Assembly: GCA_019359155.1 (NCBI GenBank)
Contig: JAHHHV010000084.1
Span: 1 to 64,000, forward strand
Length of the DNA stretch: 64,000 nt
Direction: 5' to 3'
Source: Pegethrix bostrychoides GSE-TBD4-15B
Lineage (GTDB): Bacteria; Cyanobacteriota; Cyanobacteriia; Elainellales; Elainellaceae
A program made the translations under genes and the position numbers. Positions 48,343 through 55,778 of the stretch are shown in pieces. The first letter of the stretch is position 1, and each line of letters starts with the position of its first letter. The notes below the pieces were generated by a model, which searched no databases, was not told the origin of the DNA, and was given only the letters and a program-made list of their open reading frames with translations.

Positions 48343-49425
48343 ATGGCTTCGCCATCTCCCCAATCTTCTTTTCCCTGGCAAACTCTCGCAAACTCGGCGC
48401 TGCTGCGCTACATTTTGCTGTTTGCCTGTGGCTGGATCACCGTGCTGCTGATCACCTATTTTTACAGCACAATTGCCCTGTTTGCGACTGCTGGCATCTT
48501 TGCAGCATTGCTCAACTATCCGGTGGGCTGGCTATCGCGCTCGATGCCAAGAGGCTGGGCGATTGCCGTCACCTTCCTAGTAGCGGTCGCGCTGCTGCTG
48601 AGTCTAGTCACCTTTGTCGGCCTAGAGGTGCTGAATCAGGGGCAAGGGCTAGTTGCGACGCTGCGGACGAGCCTCAGCCAGCCAGACTTTCTGCCGTTTC
48701 AAGATCTGCTAAATCGCATCGAATTCAGCAAGGTGATTGGCACGCTCCAGACTGGCTTGGTCTCAGGCTTGGGAATTTTGCAGGGCATCTTTTCAGGGCT
48801 ATTCATCGGCATATTTGGAGTCGTGATCTGTCTGTATATGCTGATCGATGGCGATAAGCTCTGGCAGTCGTTCCTGAAGCGGTTGCCAGCGTCATCCCGC
48901 GAGCGATTTTCGACCACGTTTCGGCAGAGCTTTCTGGGCTTTATCCGAGGGCAGCTGTTGCTGATGCTGTTTTTGTCAGGCAGCACGCTGCTGATTTTTC
49001 CGTTTTTGGGCGTGAACTACGCGCTGATTTTGGCGATCATTGTCGGCTTAATTGACGCAATTCCGGGGATTGGCGCGACGCTAGGGATCACTGTGGTGAG
49101 TCTACTGGTGCTGGCTTCTCAGGGCGGGGCGGTCGCGTTGCGCGTGGTGATTGTCTGTATTTTGCTGGTGCAGATTCAGGATAACTACCTGCGCCCCAAA
49201 GTAATGGGCGATGCTCTGGAACTGAACCCAGTTCTGCTGTTTTTGGCGCTGTTTATTGGCGAACGGATTGCCGGACTGCTGGGCATCTTTCTCTCGATTC
49301 CGATTGCCGGAATGATTGCGGCCTGGATGCGGGCATCTGAAACCCGCGCGGCTGCGCCAGATCTGAATCTAGATATGAGCCTAGAGCCAGCCCAAGAGGT
49401 TGAGCCGCCCGTCGAGCAGGTCTAA
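48343..49425 (+). CDS. AI-2E family transporter (YdiK/PerM-like)
   Basis: 360 aa. About eight membrane helices; family signatures include FFGVVIC-like loop IFGVVICLYMLIDGDKLWQS, GFIRGQLLLMLFLSGSTLLI, the GLIDAIPGIGATLGITVVSL motif and DNYLRPKVMGDALELNPVLL. Members export diverse small molecules or act as Na+/H+ antiporters; quorum signalling is not implied. Ends 11 nt before the DUF1400/C45 gene. Confidence 0.9.
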   Translation: MASPSPQSSFPWQTLANSALLRYILLFACGWITVLLITYFYSTIALFATAGIFAALLNYPVGWLSRSMPRGWAIAVTFLVAVALLLSLVTFVGLEVLNQGQGLVATLRTSLSQPDFLPFQDLLNRIEFSKVIGTLQTGLVSGLGILQGIFSGLFIGIFGVVICLYMLIDGDKLWQSFLKRLPASSRERFSTTFRQSFLGFIRGQLLLMLFLSGSTLLIFPFLGVNYALILAIIVGLIDAIPGIGATLGITVVSLLVLASQGGAVALRVVIVCILLVQIQDNYLRPKVMGDALELNPVLLFLALFIGERIAGLLGIFLSIPIAGMIAAWMRASETRAAAPDLNLDMSLEPAQEVEPPVEQV

Positions 49426-49436
49426 TTACTGAATCT

Positions 49437-52133
49437 ATGTCTAAATTTTTTCGGGGTCAATTTCGGGGTCAATTTCGAGGTCAGTCACTGGGGTCACATC
49501 TGCGAGCACATCTGGGGAGAGCCTCACGGTTCAGGCGTTGGGGGCTGTATTCGCTGTTGGGAGCTGCAATTAGCCTGCTCTGCTTGGCCACCCAAGCCCA
49601 GGCCAGTCAAACGCTGCTGCTGGAATATGACGATCTGAAAATGCAGATCCCGCTGGCGACCTTCGAGACTTTCGTGAGCGATACAGCCGCTGACCCAGCG
49701 CCCGATCCACCCGACAGCGCACCTAACCTACAGGGCAGAACAGCCGCGCTCCGGGAGTTTTTGCAGGAGACTCAGCTAGATCCGGCGGTGCTGAAACAAT
49801 GGCTGACGGCGCAGATTCAGCTGCCGCTGGTGCAAAATATTGCGCCCGACTTTGTGCTGCTACAGCTCAACAAGCTCGTGGGCGATCCGCTGGGGCGAGA
49901 AACCAGCCTGTCAGCGCTCAGAACTGCCTTCACTCAGGCGACTAGCGACGGTTCCTTTTCGCTGCTGGAACTTATAGAAAACTACCCCGGCTCAGAGCGA
50001 CGGCTGAATTTGAGCCGCCTACAGCAAGTCTATACAGACGTGACGCTGCTGGTAACGCGGATTCAGCCTGTGTTGCAAGTGGCCGAAGCGCTGCTGCCAG
50101 AATTACTCTGTGACTGCAACGTCGCAGTGACTGCCCCCGACTCTGCTCAGGCCGTCGCCTATGCCCAAACTCGCACCGCCGTCAAATCGCTGCTGCCTAA
50201 TCTGGCGGCAACAGACCTTGATCCTAAACCAGCTCTTGACCCGGCGCTCGACCCAGCGCTCGACCCGGTGCTGATTGCCCAACTCCCCAGCGACTCCCCC
50301 GCGCTGGCAGGTCAAAGTCTGGTGATCGAGTTTGGCCCCTTTGGTCGCTCCATCGCGCTTCAAGACCTGACTCGCTTTGCCGAAACCGGAGAGCTATCGA
50401 GAGGCTGGCGATTTTTCTTCAACGTTGGTGGCGTAGATCCAGCCGATGTCCGGGCGGCGCTGAACCAAGAGATTGCCGTCAGCCTGCAATTTTTAGACAG
50501 CACGCTGAACAATCTGCTGGGCGAATTTCTGCTCTACCAGGTAGGGCAAGTCGTACATACCCCCTCCAATACTGCCAATATTCAAGCCCTGCGCGCCGCC
50601 AGCGTCCTGTCGGTTGTCAAAGATGGCCGTCTGTCGCTGCTGGAGATCATTCAGCGCTATCCAACTCGCCAGATGCATATCAACGGCCTGCGGCTGGCTC
50701 GGATTGGGAGCAACGCCAGCCGATTGCGGGCCCGACTGGAGGGCGCAAGCCTTAGAGAAGGCGTGGCCGGAGCGGTGCAAACTACCGTGCTCGCCGTTGA
50801 AGACTGGCTGGTGCAGCTGCAAGCCTCAGCCGCCGTCAGTCGCTGCAACTGCGAAGCCGCCGCCCCGCCGATCACGGCTCCCACCATTTCGTCCGCCGAG
50901 ATCGCGCAGTTTCTCCCCGCTAACTGGCAGCCCGTCGCCGCCCACCGCGAAGACTACGGCATTATCAAAGTCGTCTGGCTCCAGGGCACGCCTTACGATA
51001 TGGGCTATCAGCATGGGCAATATCTGCACGATGAGATTGCCTCATTGGGCAGCAAGGTCATCGGGGCGCTGCGGTTTGCAGGTCGCGGACTGGCGCTGGG
51101 GCAGCTGGCCGCCAATCGCTCGTATCCAGCCGTGGTCGAAGAATGTCGCGGGCTGGCGGATGCAACCCAGGATATTGGCATGACGCTGGATGCCTGTCTG
51201 GTGCTGGCCTACGGTGATGTCTATCAAGAAGTCTTTGCCAATACGCTGCCGGAAGTGCTGTTTTGGGATGGATGCAGTCAGTGGGTGGCCACGGGCGATG
51301 CCACGCGAGACGGACGGCTCTATCACGGCAGCACGCTGGATAACGATACCAAGCCCATCGACTACATTGTGAATAATCCGGTGGTGTTTGTCCGCCAGCC
51401 CAACGACGGTCTGCCCCATGTCTTTATTACCTATCCGGCAGTCGTCTGGCCGAACTGGGGCGTGAACGTTGCGGGGATAACGCTGGGGCTAGATACGCTG
51501 CACCCCAGCGGCCCGGAGGAGCTGTCGTTTCAGGGTGGCAGCATTGTCCAGACGATGGGGCAGATCCTAAAAACCGCCACCAGCTTCACTCAAGCCCGTC
51601 AGATTATGGAGACGCAGCCGCGCGTTCAGGCAGATCTGGTGATGATCACAGACGGCAAATCAAAAGAGGCGGGCGCATTTGAACTCACAGGTCGCCATGA
51701 GGCGGTGCGGGAGCTGCCAGAAACGGGCGTGCTGTTCATGACCAATCACGCGGTTTCCGAGGAAATGTACAGCAGGCAGCGGCAGCCCGTTGATCAGTCC
51801 ACCCTGCTGCGGTTTCAGCGGTTTTCGCAGCTGATGGAGCCGCAGGGCGGCCAGACTTTCTACGGCAGGATTGATCCGGCAGTCATGGCGCAAATTGGCC
51901 GCGACCGGGTGAACCCGCAGACGCTAGAGGCTAGCCCTTTCGATCTCTTTGATGACGATGCCAGTCCCGGCGGCAATGGCTCGCTGCGCCAAGGCATTTA
52001 CGACCCCGACAAGCTGCTGATCTGGGTGGCGGCAGGCAGTCCGCCCGTGCCCGAAAATCCGTTTGTCTGTTTCTCGCTAGGAGAGATGCTGAACTTCCCG
52101 AACGCTACGCCCTGCGAGTCGCCAGCGCTTTAG
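49437..52133 (+). CDS. Two DUF1400-like domains fused to a C45-type Ntn hydrolase, exported
   Basis: 898 aa. Signal helix about 37-56 (YSLLGAAISLLCLATQAQAS). Two DUF1400-like regions: about 57-221 (LLLEYDDLKMQIPLATFETF) and about 293-464 (LVIEFGPFGRSIALQDLTRF, then LSRGWRFFFNVGG). DUF1400 normally precedes an alpha/beta hydrolase in cyanobacteria. Here the catalytic part (about 500-890) instead resembles the C45 acyltransferase/choloylglycine-like Ntn fold: GTPYDMGYQHGQYLHDEI, then WDGCSQWVATGDATRDGRLY with nucleophile candidate C613, and MTNHAVS. It could be an amidase or acylase working in the periplasm and self-cleaving before C613. Two internal 12-nt repeat tracts. Confidence 0.78.
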   Translation: MSKFFRGQFRGQFRGQSLGSHLRAHLGRASRFRRWGLYSLLGAAISLLCLATQAQASQTLLLEYDDLKMQIPLATFETFVSDTAADPAPDPPDSAPNLQGRTAALREFLQETQLDPAVLKQWLTAQIQLPLVQNIAPDFVLLQLNKLVGDPLGRETSLSALRTAFTQATSDGSFSLLELIENYPGSERRLNLSRLQQVYTDVTLLVTRIQPVLQVAEALLPELLCDCNVAVTAPDSAQAVAYAQTRTAVKSLLPNLAATDLDPKPALDPALDPALDPVLIAQLPSDSPALAGQSLVIEFGPFGRSIALQDLTRFAETGELSRGWRFFFNVGGVDPADVRAALNQEIAVSLQFLDSTLNNLLGEFLLYQVGQVVHTPSNTANIQALRAASVLSVVKDGRLSLLEIIQRYPTRQMHINGLRLARIGSNASRLRARLEGASLREGVAGAVQTTVLAVEDWLVQLQASAAVSRCNCEAAAPPITAPTISSAEIAQFLPANWQPVAAHREDYGIIKVVWLQGTPYDMGYQHGQYLHDEIASLGSKVIGALRFAGRGLALGQLAANRSYPAVVEECRGLADATQDIGMTLDACLVLAYGDVYQEVFANTLPEVLFWDGCSQWVATGDATRDGRLYHGSTLDNDTKPIDYIVNNPVVFVRQPNDGLPHVFITYPAVVWPNWGVNVAGITLGLDTLHPSGPEELSFQGGSIVQTMGQILKTATSFTQARQIMETQPRVQADLVMITDGKSKEAGAFELTGRHEAVRELPETGVLFMTNHAVSEEMYSRQRQPVDQSTLLRFQRFSQLMEPQGGQTFYGRIDPAVMAQIGRDRVNPQTLEASPFDLFDDDASPGGNGSLRQGIYDPDKLLIWVAAGSPPVPENPFVCFSLGEMLNFPNATPCESPAL
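49450..49485 (+). repeat. 12-nt tandem repeat, 3 copies, at the N-terminus
   Basis: TTTCGGGGTCAA twice, then TTTCGAGGTCAG; encodes repeated FRGQ just before the basic n-region of the signal helix of the DUF1400/C45 protein. Confidence 0.95.
50229..50276 (+). repeat. 12-nt tandem repeat, about 4 copies
   Basis: CCAGCTCTTGAC, CCGGCGCTCGAC, CCAGCGCTCGAC, CCGGTGCTGATT; encodes PALD x3 then PVLI, in the linker between the two DUF1400-like domains. Confidence 0.93.
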
Positions 52134-52202
52134 CAATTTGCATTCAGCTCTCACTGTCACCATCACTCTCGCCTTCGCTCTCGCCATCAAGCCCCTTTCG
52201 AA

Positions 52203-52232
52203 CTCAAGCCATCTCAAGCCATCTCAAGCCAT
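52203..52232 (+). repeat. 10-nt tandem repeat, 3 copies, touching the ATPase start codon
   Basis: CTCAAGCCAT three times exactly; the last two bases of the third copy are the A and T of ATG 52231. It occupies the whole ribosome-binding region. Confidence 0.95.
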
Positions 52233-54762
52233 GGACTCCACGTTAGAGCAACTCCCAGGACTCAGCGATCGCGAGGCGGCCAGCCGTCGAGCCGCAGGGC
52301 AGGGTAACAACCTCTCGATTCAGACCAGCCGCACCTACTGGGATATTTTGCGGGATAACCTATTTACCTTTATTAATGGGGTCTATTTTTTCCTGAGTCT
52401 GGTGCTGATTGGTCTAGGGCGAGCCAGCGATGTGATCGTGCTGGCCTTTGTGATTTTGCTGAACGTAGTAATCAACGTAATTCAGGAGATCCGCGCCAAG
52501 CGAAAGCTCGACCGCATTGCCCTGGTGACGCGCCCCAAAGCGTGCCTGATCCGCTCAGGGCAGGAGCGCAACCTTGACCCCTCTGAAATCGTCGTCGGCG
52601 ATCTGCTGGTGGTGCGTCCCGGTGATCAGATTGTGGTAGACGGTGCGGTTGCCAGAGGCGAAATTAAGGTGGACGAATCACTGCTGACTGGCGAGTCCGA
52701 TCTGATTGCCAAGCAGCCGGGTAGCCCGCTTTATTCCGGCAGCTTCTGCGTCAGCGGCAGCGCCTGCTACACCGCCGAAAAAGTCGGAGCCGAGAGTCTG
52801 GCCAACAAAATGACGGCTGAGGCCCGCAAGTTTCGCAAGCTGCTCACCCCTCTCCAGCAGCGGATCAATCGTCTGATTCGGCTGCTGCTGGGCATTGCCA
52901 TTCTGCTCGGCCTGATCACGGGGCTGCGGGTGCTGCTCGGCGTGACCTCTCTGACCGCAGGCATTCAAAATATTGCCGTGATTGTCGGGCTAGTTCCCAG
53001 CGGCCTTTATTTGATGATCACGCTGGCCTATGCGTTTGGAGCGGTGCGGATTGCCCAGCAGAGTGCGCTGGTGCAGCAGGCTAACGCTGTCGAGTCGCTC
53101 AGCAACGTCGATATCATCTGCCTGGACAAGACCGGAACGCTCACCGCCAACCGGATCAGCTTGCAGCAGCTTGAGCCGCTCGATCGCGATCGCGCCAGCC
53201 TGGAACGGCTGCTGGGAGACTATGCGGCCAGCGCCTCGGCCAGCAACCCCACCAATGCTGCCATTCTCGCCGCCTTCCCCAGCCCCAAACAGCCGCTCAA
53301 GCGCGAAATTCCGTTCAGCTCAGCCTACAAATGGAGCGCGATCAGCTTTGCTCAGTCTCCGGGCGTTTACGTTTTGGGTGCGCCCGAGATTTTGCTGCGA
53401 GCCATGTCGCTGGGCAACTCCCTGTCTGCTCAAATCCAGGCGCAGATCCAAGCGCAAATTCAGGCCGGAGCTGACCAGGGGCTGCGCGTGCTGCTGTTTG
53501 CCTATAGCCCTGCCGAGCTAGAAGCGCCTCCTGAATCAGCGGCTCCAGCCGCAGCTAATCCACTGCTGCCCACTGATCTCCAGCCGCTGGGCGTGCTGTT
53601 TTTTGGCGATGAGCTGCGCCGGGATGCCTATCAAACGCTGGCGGCGTTTCGGGAGGCGGGGATTCAGGTGAAGGTGATCTCAGGCGATAATCCGGCTACG
53701 GTGGCCGCGCTAGCCAAGCAGGCCGGACTGAGCCAGGAGCTGATCGCGGTATCGGGACAGGCGCTAGAGCAGATGGATGAGGCGCTGTTTACCCAGACTG
53801 CCCTGAAGAGCACGGTATTTGGCCGGATCACGCCTGAGCAGAAAGCGCGGCTGGTCAAAAGCCTCCAGTCGCAGCAGCACTACGTGGCGATGATGGGGGA
53901 TGGGGTGAATGACGTGCTCTCGCTGAAGCAGGCTAACGTCGGGATTGCGATGGAGAGCGGCAGTCAGGCAACCAGGGGCGTAGCCGATATTGTCTTGCTG
54001 CAAGATGCCTTTGGGGCGCTGCCTAAGATTTTTCTGGAGGGTCAGCGGATTCGCAACGGCGCAACCGACATCAGCAAGCTGTTTGTAGTGCGGATTTTCT
54101 CGTTTATTTTGGTGATTGTGGCGGTGGGGATGATTTCGCTGTCGTTCCCGTTTGGGATCAAAACCAGCACCATTGTCACCTTTCTCACCGTCGGCCTGCC
54201 GCCTTTCTTTGTGACGCTCTGGGCGAAGCCTGGAAAGGCAGCTTCGGCTCAGGGCAATCCGTTTCTGCATTTTGTCATTCCCGCAACGCTGACGCTGGGA
54301 CTGGCGAGCGTTCTGGTCTATCTCTATTTTTTGGCTGAGAATATTGGGCCTGTGCTGGCTTGGCTCAGCGGTCAGCTGCCGCTGAGTGAACTCGACGCGC
54401 AGATTAGCTTTGAAGATCTGGTGCGGGCGCAGTGGGTGGCCGAAACAGCGCTGATCACCATGCAGGTTTTGGGTGGGCTATGGCTGATTCTGTTTTTGAA
54501 GCCACCAAGTCCGGCCTGGGTAGGAGGCGAGCCGCTCACCCAAGACTGGCGCTATGCTGGCCTGACGGGTCTGGTGGTGCTGCTGTATCTGGGGATTTTA
54601 CTGCTGCCGCCGCTGCGCCGCTTTTTTGAACTCTACCCGCTGGATTTGGTGCACTATTTAGAGATTGGACTGGTCAGCCTAATTTGGGCATTGTCGCTGC
54701 GCTGGATTTGGAGAAAGAGCTGGCTGGATCGCTTTTCTGGTAGCCGGATTAGTCCGTTTTGA
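52231..54762 (+). CDS. P-type ATPase (CtpE-like)
   Basis: 843 aa from ATG 52231. A longer frame from 52138 overlaps unrelated Ser-rich sequence and is rejected. The actuator motif TGES is at 153-156, the phosphorylation motif DKTGT begins at D299 and the hinge GDGVND lies near 558. There are about ten membrane helices and no N-terminal heavy-metal domain. TM4 reads VGLVPSGLYLMITLAYAFG, where the proline-centred ion site (VPSGL) matches the CtpE group, linked to calcium uptake in mycobacteria. Ion specificity here is inferred only. No normal SD is visible: the region before the ATG is a 10-nt tandem repeat. Confidence 0.9.
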   Translation: MDSTLEQLPGLSDREAASRRAAGQGNNLSIQTSRTYWDILRDNLFTFINGVYFFLSLVLIGLGRASDVIVLAFVILLNVVINVIQEIRAKRKLDRIALVTRPKACLIRSGQERNLDPSEIVVGDLLVVRPGDQIVVDGAVARGEIKVDESLLTGESDLIAKQPGSPLYSGSFCVSGSACYTAEKVGAESLANKMTAEARKFRKLLTPLQQRINRLIRLLLGIAILLGLITGLRVLLGVTSLTAGIQNIAVIVGLVPSGLYLMITLAYAFGAVRIAQQSALVQQANAVESLSNVDIICLDKTGTLTANRISLQQLEPLDRDRASLERLLGDYAASASASNPTNAAILAAFPSPKQPLKREIPFSSAYKWSAISFAQSPGVYVLGAPEILLRAMSLGNSLSAQIQAQIQAQIQAGADQGLRVLLFAYSPAELEAPPESAAPAAANPLLPTDLQPLGVLFFGDELRRDAYQTLAAFREAGIQVKVISGDNPATVAALAKQAGLSQELIAVSGQALEQMDEALFTQTALKSTVFGRITPEQKARLVKSLQSQQHYVAMMGDGVNDVLSLKQANVGIAMESGSQATRGVADIVLLQDAFGALPKIFLEGQRIRNGATDISKLFVVRIFSFILVIVAVGMISLSFPFGIKTSTIVTFLTVGLPPFFVTLWAKPGKAASAQGNPFLHFVIPATLTLGLASVLVYLYFLAENIGPVLAWLSGQLPLSELDAQISFEDLVRAQWVAETALITMQVLGGLWLILFLKPPSPAWVGGEPLTQDWRYAGLTGLVVLLYLGILLLPPLRRFFELYPLDLVHYLEIGLVSLIWALSLRWIWRKSWLDRFSGSRISPF
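53431..53466 (+). repeat. 12-nt tandem repeat, 3 copies, in the ATPase N-domain
   Basis: CAAATCCAGGCG, CAGATCCAAGCG, CAAATTCAGGCC; encodes QIQA three times and lengthens a helix in the nucleotide-binding domain. Confidence 0.92.
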
Positions 54763-54824
54763 GGCTGGTGCCGCTCCCTGGCTCGGCTTTTATTAAAAAA
54801 TTTTATTAATATGCTTTAATTTTT

Positions 54825-55778
54825 ATGCTTCAGTATATTCGGTCTACTCTTCTGCCCTCAAAACCAGCTCAGCTTTTTGTCCAAGCTGGCCTGAAGTGGG
54901 ATCAGGACAATTGCCCTGGAATGGCTGCCTCGCTAGCCTATTTCTCGCTGTTCTCGCTGTTTCCAATTCTGCTAGTTATTCTCAGCGTGGTTGGGGCGTT
55001 CATTGGCCCAGAGACAGAGGCGTTTCAGGCGATTTTGACGGCAATTGAGCGGTTTTTGCCGCCCGAAGTGCATGACTTAATCAAAGCCACCATTACCTCG
55101 CTCAACGAAAATAGCGTTGGGGCAGGCGTGATTGGCTTTGGTCTGCTGCTCTGGGCAGCCAGCGCTGTCTTCACCATTCTCAGAAGCTCTGTCAATAAGA
55201 TTTGGCAGTCTCCCAGCCGCGTCTCAGAGGTGGGATCGCTGCCCAGAATGCTGCTGTTCTTTCTAGCCAATCGGCTGTTTGCGTTCATGCTGGTGCTGGG
55301 AATTGCTTTACTGCTGCTGGCTTCGCTGATTTCCAGCATTGTGATCAAAACTATTTTGAAGCTGGTTGGCACTTTTCAAGAGACGTTTGCCTATATCCAG
55401 GTTGATGAACTGCAATTGTCTAGAGGACTGCAAGCCAGCTCGTCTTTCCTGATTCTGGCGATTGCTGCCTGCATTCTGTTTAAAATCCTGCCTGCGGTCT
55501 ATGTCGGCTGGCGAGATGTCTGGCTGGGGGCGCTGCTGACGGCTTTCCTGCTCGTTGGCTTGCAGCAGCTCGTCAGCAACAGCGTTATCTCAATTGGCAG
55601 CCATTTTCTCTCCTATGGCGTGATTGGCAGCGTCATGATTCTGATGCTCTGGATCTTTTTGACCTGTCAGATTTTTCTGTTCGGCTGTGTGCTCTCCTAC
55701 GTCTATGCCCAGCTGTTTGGCAGTCGTCGGCATCAGAACCCCGCTGCCACAGCAGATTCCGATCGCCCTGTCGCCTAG
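54825..55778 (+). CDS. YihY/virulence-factor BrkB family membrane protein
   Basis: 317 aa with about six membrane helices. Signatures: DNCPGMAASLAYFSLFSLFP near 27-46, GFGLLLWAASAVFTILRSSV, KILPAVYVGWRDVWLGALLT and the last loop VIGSVMILMLWIFLTCQIFL. The YihY/BrkB family was once called RNase BN; its members are now seen as membrane proteins of uncertain transport function. The start has no SD and an AT-rich leader. 62 nt after the P-type ATPase. Confidence 0.9.
   Translation: MLQYIRSTLLPSKPAQLFVQAGLKWDQDNCPGMAASLAYFSLFSLFPILLVILSVVGAFIGPETEAFQAILTAIERFLPPEVHDLIKATITSLNENSVGAGVIGFGLLLWAASAVFTILRSSVNKIWQSPSRVSEVGSLPRMLLFFLANRLFAFMLVLGIALLLLASLISSIVIKTILKLVGTFQETFAYIQVDELQLSRGLQASSSFLILAIAACILFKILPAVYVGWRDVWLGALLTAFLLVGLQQLVSNSVISIGSHFLSYGVIGSVMILMLWIFLTCQIFLFGCVLSYVYAQLFGSRRHQNPAATADSDRPVA

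Follow-up and report, generated by a model that had tools for sequence, protein, structure and literature searches.

Two kinds of described enzyme are close in predicted fold to the product of the gene considered here. Fungal isopenicillin N acyltransferase is a peroxisomal protein that processes itself between G102 and C103 (PMC7183595). Acid ceramidase requires saposin-D, a separate helper protein, for optimal activity, and data in PMC5915598 suggest that the two do not form a complex. The gene in question is an open reading frame (ORF) in a 64,000-nucleotide stretch of the cyanobacterium Pegethrix bostrychoides GSE-TBD4-15B (assembly GCA_019359155.1, contig JAHHHV010000084.1, positions 1 to 64,000), called the window below. 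Its product joins two copies of the domain DUF1400 to an N-terminal nucleophile (Ntn) hydrolase of the C45 type. DUF1400 itself appears, in the portions of the literature found, as a mere annotation or as a domain excluded from a set; PMC11878206 dropped it from its collection of alpha/beta hydrolases on the ground that it lies ahead of the hydrolase proper.

The protein is probably a C45-type Ntn amide hydrolase (or acyltransferase) that is exported, processes itself and has been fused to its own partner protein, the DUF1400 pair. Computed support for this reading comes from the domains, the predicted fold, the conservation of the nucleophile and active site, the occurrence of the fusion, the pairing of the same two parts as separate genes, and their shared history. 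Self-cleavage, the export site, physical interaction of the parts, the amide substrate, the docking role and a lipid substrate are presumed.

Architecture of the fused protein

The ORF starts with ATG and has no internal stops. Its N-terminal features are as follows.

49437..52133, plus strand: ORF of 898 amino acids (export signal, DUF1400 type 1, DUF1400 type 2, C45 Ntn hydrolase)
49437..49604, plus strand: putative N-terminal export signal, recognized by eye and by hydropathy (basic n-region, then a hydrophobic stretch starting near residue 37, with A-Q-A ahead of residue 57)
49602..49997, plus strand: DUF1400 copy 1 (type 1 lineage), 32.5 bits, E 3.6e-7
50109..50117, plus strand: C-x-C motif (C225, C227) after DUF1400 copy 1
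50310..50684, plus strand: DUF1400 copy 2 (type 2 lineage), 113.5 bits, E 3.3e-32
50844..50852, plus strand: C-x-C motif (C470, C472) after DUF1400 copy 2

An earlier note, made from the letters of this DNA and their translations, had proposed a double DUF1400 and a C45-type Ntn hydrolase in one ORF, and this architecture was confirmed by profiles (PF07176 twice, NF040521 and AAT) and by the predicted fold. The whole protein matches the DUF1400 profile with E 6.7e-40 in two stretches, and the assignment of residues 57-464 to DUF1400 held, with both copies above the curated Pfam cut-off of 23.4 bits for PF07176. The C-terminal part matches PF03417 AAT (E 1.8e-8, 34.8 bits, cut-off 23.2), and residues 516-859 match NCBIfam NF040521 C45_proenzyme with 111.5 bits (cut-off 85). 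No alpha/beta-hydrolase domain was found in the ORF in a Pfam scan that admitted E values up to 1. The N-terminus, with a hydropathy peak of 2.1 at residue 37 and the A-Q-A motif, looks like an export signal. An AlphaFold2 model of the full ORF, for which sequences from the window and from named genomes were used, has a mean predicted local distance difference test score (pLDDT) of 84.8 and a predicted template modelling score (pTM) of 0.78. Ten-residue pLDDT means in the C45 part are mostly 84-99, with a minimum of 67 at residues 601-610.

The catalytic part

The catalytic features of the C-terminal part are the following.

50964..51272, plus strand: C45 alpha (pro) part, residues 510-612, 103 residues (102 in the alpha part of isopenicillin N acyltransferase)
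51270..51275, plus strand: predicted self-cleavage site G612/C613, with C613 the predicted nucleophile (alignment, fold comparison, conservation)
51273..52130, plus strand: C45 beta (catalytic) chain, residues 613-898
51330..51341, plus strand: S632 and D635; S632 would occupy, by spacing, the place of ceramidase Arg159, and D635 is aligned with acyltransferase D121
51465..51467, plus strand: N677, conserved in 76 of 77 rows
51744..51746, plus strand: N770 of T-N-H, aligned with acyltransferase N246; present in 69 of 77 rows, the other 8 being gapped
51810..51812, plus strand: R792, present in 50 of the 50 rows that have a letter, 27 being gapped

The structure prediction agrees with the C45-type Ntn fold that had been proposed: residues 510-888 of the model superimpose best on the precursor of isopenicillin N acyltransferase (2x1c), with Z 37.3 and a root-mean-square deviation of 2.6 over 330 residues. 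Acid ceramidase (5u81, Z 30.4) and NAAA (6dxw, Z 30.0) follow, and the N-acyl-homoserine-lactone (AHL) acylase MacQ comes further down (Z 23.3). A phmmer alignment to 2x1d, itself a weak hit (E 0.029), places G612-C613 on G102-C103, D635 on D121 and N770 on N246. Furthermore, C613 is the first aligned residue against the mature chains of NAAA (residue 126), acid ceramidase (143), the 66.3-kDa protein (249), PLBD1 (225) and penicillin V acylase (1). The suggestion that C613 is the nucleophile is thus favoured both by its match to acyltransferase C103 and by its position at the start of these mature-chain fold alignments.

The same cysteine is conserved among homologues, another point on which the proposal stood. 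Of the 77 C45 rows in the alignment, one of which is the window's, 76 keep C613; the remaining row (L139) is gapped there, its called ORF being a fragment that starts behind that position. D635 is likewise kept in 76 of the 77 rows, with one gapped. This alignment lacks the C45 gene of G053 (L108/L136), which the ORF caller dropped for its overlap with a longer ORF. With a profile match over the cut-off and, in the model, an Ntn fold with a cysteine at the nucleophile position, the fusion is a member of the C45 family, and G612-C613, aligned with G102-C103 of the acyltransferase, is its predicted self-cleavage site.

One active-site position varies. In acid ceramidase R159 lies three residues before D162, and the change R159Q reduces activity (PMC5915598). 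S632 of the fusion stands at the same distance of three residues before D635, so that, judged from spacing in the sequence, position 632 would be the R159 place. In the 31 rows from the phylum, all 12 of the fusion clade have Ser at this position, while 4 rows have Gly, 5 have Trp and 10 have Arg; the rows with Ser, with Gly and with Trp correspond to clades in the C45 tree. The change of residue suggests different substrates between clades. R792 may correspond to the catalytic Arg of the ceramidase.

Occurrence and single origin of the fusion

Uninterrupted fused ORFs, the window's included, number 11 in 10 genomes. Ten are in nine genomes (G000, which is the window's own, G301, G320, G316 with two, G295, G308, G303, G300 and G011), and the eleventh, found by ORF reading and a domain scan, is in G345, outside the family. 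G302 has both parts as adjacent ORFs that are mutually out of frame, and the fusion gene of G304 is cut by a contig start. The fusions form a clade with 100/100 support in a tree of 43 C45 domains, which excludes G345 as well as domains shorter than 300 residues or with E above 1e-30; L081 is labelled as free in this tree only because its contig starts inside the gene. The fusion arose once. Loci of duplicate genomes (L111-L114, L115, L116-L120, L122, L130, L132 and L134) were kept out of the trees, the 77-row alignment and the pair distances. An N-terminal hydrophobic segment with hydropathy of at least 2.1 is present in 9 of 10 fusions.

Carriage by mobile elements was considered and rejected. 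For viruses, 13 stretches matched a pattern and none was a relative, and plasmids gave one weak match, from Halomarina, with 24.3% identity over 79%. As a separate observation, the contig of locus L129, which carries the C45 gene pair, has a title that names it a Lyngbya confervoides plasmid.

Free C45 genes and their DUF1400 partners

The two parts of the fusion also occur as separate genes. Seventeen free cyanobacterial C45 loci were compared, defined as near-complete C45 genes close to the window's. The count takes two contigs of Mastigocoleus testarum (L126, L132) as one and leaves out C45 fragments from three genomes (G301, G292, G321) as well as L081/L115, the cut gene in G304. In 10 of the 17 a double-DUF1400 gene follows directly downstream on the same strand (L119, L120, L121, L123, L124, L125, L126, L127, L129, L131), in genera that include Mastigocoleus, Calothrix, Lyngbya and Leptolyngbya. 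One more, in Oculatella (L118), has the double-DUF1400 gene beside the C45 gene in divergent orientation. In Adonisia (G536, L128) a relic matching about 40 N-terminal residues of the partner begins about 20 bases after the C45 coding end (C11:3657751-3657867), and an intact partner with 78% identity lies 1.6 Mb away on the same contig (C11:5273390-5274637). Three genomes (G000 itself, G302 and G304) have the double-DUF1400 gene elsewhere. Two (G305 and G293) lack one genome-wide, their best matches being frames of standalone size; in both, the C45 open frame extends only about 15 residues ahead of the domain and lacks a hydrophobic segment. Completeness is 100% for G305 and 69% for G293, whose C45 gene is near a contig end. 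A hydrophobic N-terminal segment (hydropathy 1.6-3.2) is present in 13 of the 15 other free C45s; in L128 such a segment can be seen by eye in the DNA before the domain, and the free C45 of G304 has a stop before the domain.

DUF1400 thus neighbours the free C45 gene in 11 of 17 loci, and every other neighbour family in at most 3 of 17. It was absent around C45 in 54 of 54 loci outside the cyanobacterial class, in DNA of up to 8 kb on each side and with a recheck at the DNA level. Far C45 relatives within the class (G354, G361) and in three of four genomes of the phylum (G053, G035 and G018, with G004 not covered) likewise had no DUF1400 in the surrounding DNA examined. The distance matrices of 13 C45/DUF1400 pairs (L127, with a partner ORF that lacks copy 2, and L128, with its partner elsewhere, were not used) correlate with r 0.89, a value reached by none of 9999 permutations but, uncorrected by a control gene, partly expected from shared species history. 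That C45 and the double DUF1400 are partners is well supported.

Several side observations concern these genes. The partner ORF at L127:7050-8051 (plus strand) has copy 1 only and, compared with its relatives, an unusual extra stretch near the N-terminus; it may be a disrupted gene. Two C45 genes without export signal or DUF1400 partner (L085:9947-11224, minus strand; L086:3862-5139, plus strand) form the first branch of the 29 cyanobacterial rows of the C45 tree. Finally, three genomes of a single genus have the same three small genes next to their free double-DUF1400 gene (L090:12045-13665, L091 and L107), and two of these small proteins, taken from the window's own genome, gave no significant Pfam hit.

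History of the DUF1400 copies

In a tree of 90 DUF1400 domains the first and second copies fall into separate deep classes (37 rows with 99/95 support and 39 rows with 96/85), and type-1 and type-2 DUF1400s are adjacent, separately exported genes in many cyanobacteria. Within each class the double DUF1400s that partner C45 group together with the fusions (99/95 for type 1; 94/97 for type 2, just under the star limit). The C45 clade of G318, G302, G304 and G000 reappears for the type-1 copy (93/81), despite the genes being unlinked in three of these genomes; for the type-2 copy G318 instead groups with the fusions (85/93). DUF1400s of alpha/beta hydrolases are a separate lineage (100/99).

The window's DUF1400 copies are therefore ancient paralogues outside the alpha/beta-hydrolase lineage. 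A recent internal duplication is ruled out, since copies 1 and 2 belong to two deep classes shared with separate genes, and capture from an alpha/beta hydrolase is unsupported, since those copies form another clade. The trees are consistent with a course in which separate type-1 and type-2 genes gave rise to a double-DUF1400 gene allied to an exported C45, followed by one fusion. A C-x-C motif follows each copy in all fusions and in all two-copy double-DUF1400 ORFs listed, and occurs in both genes of 11 of 14 standalone DUF1400 pairs. In the same listing, pairs L104-L106, L100 and the two TamB-like fusions given there lack it.

DUF1400 in other settings

The earlier note had described DUF1400 as mainly the N-terminal part of alpha/beta hydrolases, and this description did not survive. 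Many DUF1400 matches lie in open frames of about 170-290 amino acids, too short to hold an alpha/beta hydrolase; type-1/type-2 gene pairs are common; and the window's own copies descend from such a pair. The companion claim, that DUF1400 is an independent module coupled to unrelated hydrolases, was upheld by its occurrence with both alpha/beta hydrolases and C45. Of 116 genomes sampled from the class, 112 contain DUF1400, whereas C45 was found in 25 of 388. The window's own genome has eight DUF1400 proteins, comprising four with a PAF-AH/PETase-like alpha/beta hydrolase, one standing alone, one free double, one beside a TamB-like gene, and the fusion. Eight of eight long DUF1400 ORFs (837-931 amino acids; L189, L190, L191, L192, L194, L196, L197, L198) have the order DUF1400, alpha/beta hydrolase, SBP_bac_3, with SBP_bac_3 of L190 just below its cut-off; ten regions had been taken for long frames, and the two outside this count held short DUF1400 ORFs only. 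Around standalone DUF1400 pairs no neighbour family occurred in more than three loci.

A third kind of partner is a short TamB-like protein. Three genomes (G298, G296, G316) encode such a protein, of 1258-1320 amino acids, with DUF1400 at its C-terminus.

L083:14529-18305, plus strand: TamB-like protein with C-terminal DUF1400
L084:6672-10547, plus strand: TamB-like protein with C-terminal DUF1400
L239:5107-9069, plus strand: TamB-like protein with C-terminal DUF1400

In seven others (G000, G301, G302, G300, G303, G304, G320) a standalone DUF1400 gene lies divergently beside a short TamB-like gene, an arrangement not found in G295 or in G308, where a contig edge intervenes. All of these TamB-like proteins are homologous to that of G298. 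Of the seven scanned, those of G298, G316 and G000 passed the Pfam TamB cut-off and those of G296, G301, G302 and G320 failed it; the NCBIfam TamB equivalog is far below its cut-off (78 of 825 bits for G298). The proteins are therefore called TamB-like rather than TamB. TamB itself figures in the literature on lipid transfer (PMC6791001, PMC10665443). In G296 and G298 the TamB-like/DUF1400 fusion lies close to the C45 gene pair. A VTT/DedA-domain gene (L084:5895-6620, plus strand) stands directly upstream of the TamB-like-DUF1400 gene in that locus, and in L083 the gene ahead of the TamB-like-DUF1400 gene belongs to the same cluster.

Neighbouring genes

The fusion gene lies in a tight same-strand run of four genes (48343-55778), which is partly retained in related genomes.

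48343..49425, plus strand: AI-2E family (PF01594) membrane protein, ending 11 bases before the fusion gene
52138..54762, plus strand: P-type ATPase, downstream of the fusion
54825..55778, plus strand: BrkB-family membrane protein

Relatives of the AI-2E family gene are upstream of the fusion in two other loci (L071, L074), and relatives of the BrkB-family gene are near it in three (L071, L072, L074).

Proposed working and alternative explanations

The proposed working begins with the signal peptide, which would export the chain. The C45 part would then fold as a proenzyme and cleave its own chain at G612/C613. This would leave C613 with a free alpha-amino group, in an active site that also contains D635 and N770. 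The DUF1400 pair would stay on the alpha part, so that the processed enzyme would consist of the two DUF1400s and alpha together with beta. The helper would most likely bring the enzyme to a membrane substrate or present the substrate, by analogy with what is thought for saposin-D and acid ceramidase. The pair is read as a dedicated subunit or helper, and the fusion as fixing a pre-existing partnership, because the pair is a separate protein encoded by the next gene in relatives. Docking or substrate presentation is the leading guess because of the envelope setting and the link to TamB-like proteins, and DUF1400 is best read as an exported partner of envelope hydrolases that possibly serves as a substrate or membrane docking module.

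Several points weigh against this reading. The 54 non-cyanobacterial loci and the two cyanobacterial C45s without DUF1400 indicate that the domain is not needed for catalysis as such, and the far wider occurrence of DUF1400 than of C45 means that it has other jobs. The gene order is reversed, with C45 before DUF1400 in the gene pair and DUF1400 before C45 in the fusion, and mere loss of a stop codon therefore does not explain the fusion; tandem duplication of the gene pair is one possibility. The correlation of partner distances is partly a matter of species history. Where other clades have Arg at position 632 the fusion clade has Ser, a possible sign of a changed reaction. Activity, cleavage and binding are computational predictions.

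A wider form of the proposal, put forward tentatively and with more doubt than belief, is that DUF1400 handles lipidic substrates as a general module of the cyanobacterial envelope, with a function comparable to that of saposins. Pairs would serve the C45 amidase, as a fused or operon-encoded subunit, single copies the PAF-AH/PETase-like esterases and others the TamB-like lipid-bridge protein. On this view C45 and its double DUF1400 would form an amidase system of two parts, located at the outer membrane and acting on lipids or lipopeptides. A model of the double DUF1400 (two copies, mean pLDDT 73) gave no Foldseek match to solved structures at E of 0.001 or below (best E 0.89), and the best Z in VIA was 3.1; at this model confidence a known fold may have gone undetected. 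Homology to saposin is not claimed because the model matched no solved fold.

An unlikely alternative makes DUF1400 an address label only, for the outer membrane, peptidoglycan or thylakoid lumen, with no part in substrate handling. Such a label would fit the export signals and the three unrelated partners, but would have no obvious need for a conserved type-1 and type-2 pair, for C-x-C motifs or for subclades matched to the partner. Rather improbable is the lid of the earlier note, in which DUF1400 would cover the active site as a steric gate, controlling access or holding the proenzyme inactive with no binding of membrane or lipid. DUF1400 does precede the catalytic domain in both alpha/beta hydrolases and the C45 fusion, and the pTM of the whole model suggests a partly defined arrangement of domains. 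However, DUF1400 is often free or separately encoded and is used here in two copies, it lies at the extreme C-terminal end in TamB-like proteins, where no enzyme domain was detected, and C45 enzymes without DUF1400 exist.

The suggestion of quorum quenching by a periplasmic AHL acylase is highly improbable. C45 is an Ntn acylase fold, MacQ is among the far fold matches and an AI-2E family gene lies upstream, but the acyltransferase (Z 37.3 against 23.3), ceramidase and NAAA all match better than MacQ, no signalling genes were found among Pfam hits of the part of the neighbours that was scanned, and the recurrent neighbour of free C45 is DUF1400. PF01594 is a broad transporter family, whose AI-2E name is no evidence for AI-2. 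That the fusion is a functionally meaningless accident or an error of assembly, for which the out-of-frame ORFs of G302 might speak, can practically be dismissed given 11 uninterrupted ORFs in 10 genomes, a single origin with deep divergence and the pairing of the same genes elsewhere, and an assembly artefact in particular is refuted because independent assemblies share the fusion.

Comparison with known systems

DUF1400 and C45 are known families; the combined architecture and the gene pair are new as far as the literature searched goes, in which neither a description of the free double-DUF1400 and C45 gene pair nor a function of bacterial C45 enzymes with DUF1400 was found. The free gene pair has the same two parts, DUF1400 types and C-x-C motifs as the fusion, but in two genes and in the opposite order. 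The cyanobacterial PAF-AH/PETase-like hydrolases resemble the fusion in having DUF1400 on the N-terminal side of the hydrolase; they differ in their single DUF1400 copy, their other catalytic fold and their separate DUF1400 lineage. The fusion and the gene pairs argue against the Pfam description of DUF1400 as an alpha/beta hydrolase, in line with PMC11878206, and the evidence points to DUF1400 as a functional partner of enzymes in the cell envelope, not as a component of a single kind of enzyme. Because the fusion and gene pairs name concrete partners, the function of DUF1400 becomes testable by two-protein assays.

Isopenicillin N acyltransferase (2x1c/2x1d) shares with the window's protein the predicted fold, an alpha part of nearly equal length, the G-C cleavage site and the correspondences D635/D121 and N770/N246. 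Identity is about 20%, however, and the window's protein adds an export signal and two DUF1400s. Acid ceramidase and NAAA, which are lipid amidases of the Ntn fold, share the predicted fold (Z of about 30) and the cysteine nucleophile, but they match with lower Z than the acyltransferase, the fusion clade has Ser at the R159 place, and no resemblance of DUF1400 to saposin was detected in the model comparison. With this locus the Ntn enzymes gain a bacterial C45 member that has a dedicated partner, a possible parallel to acid ceramidase and saposin-D.

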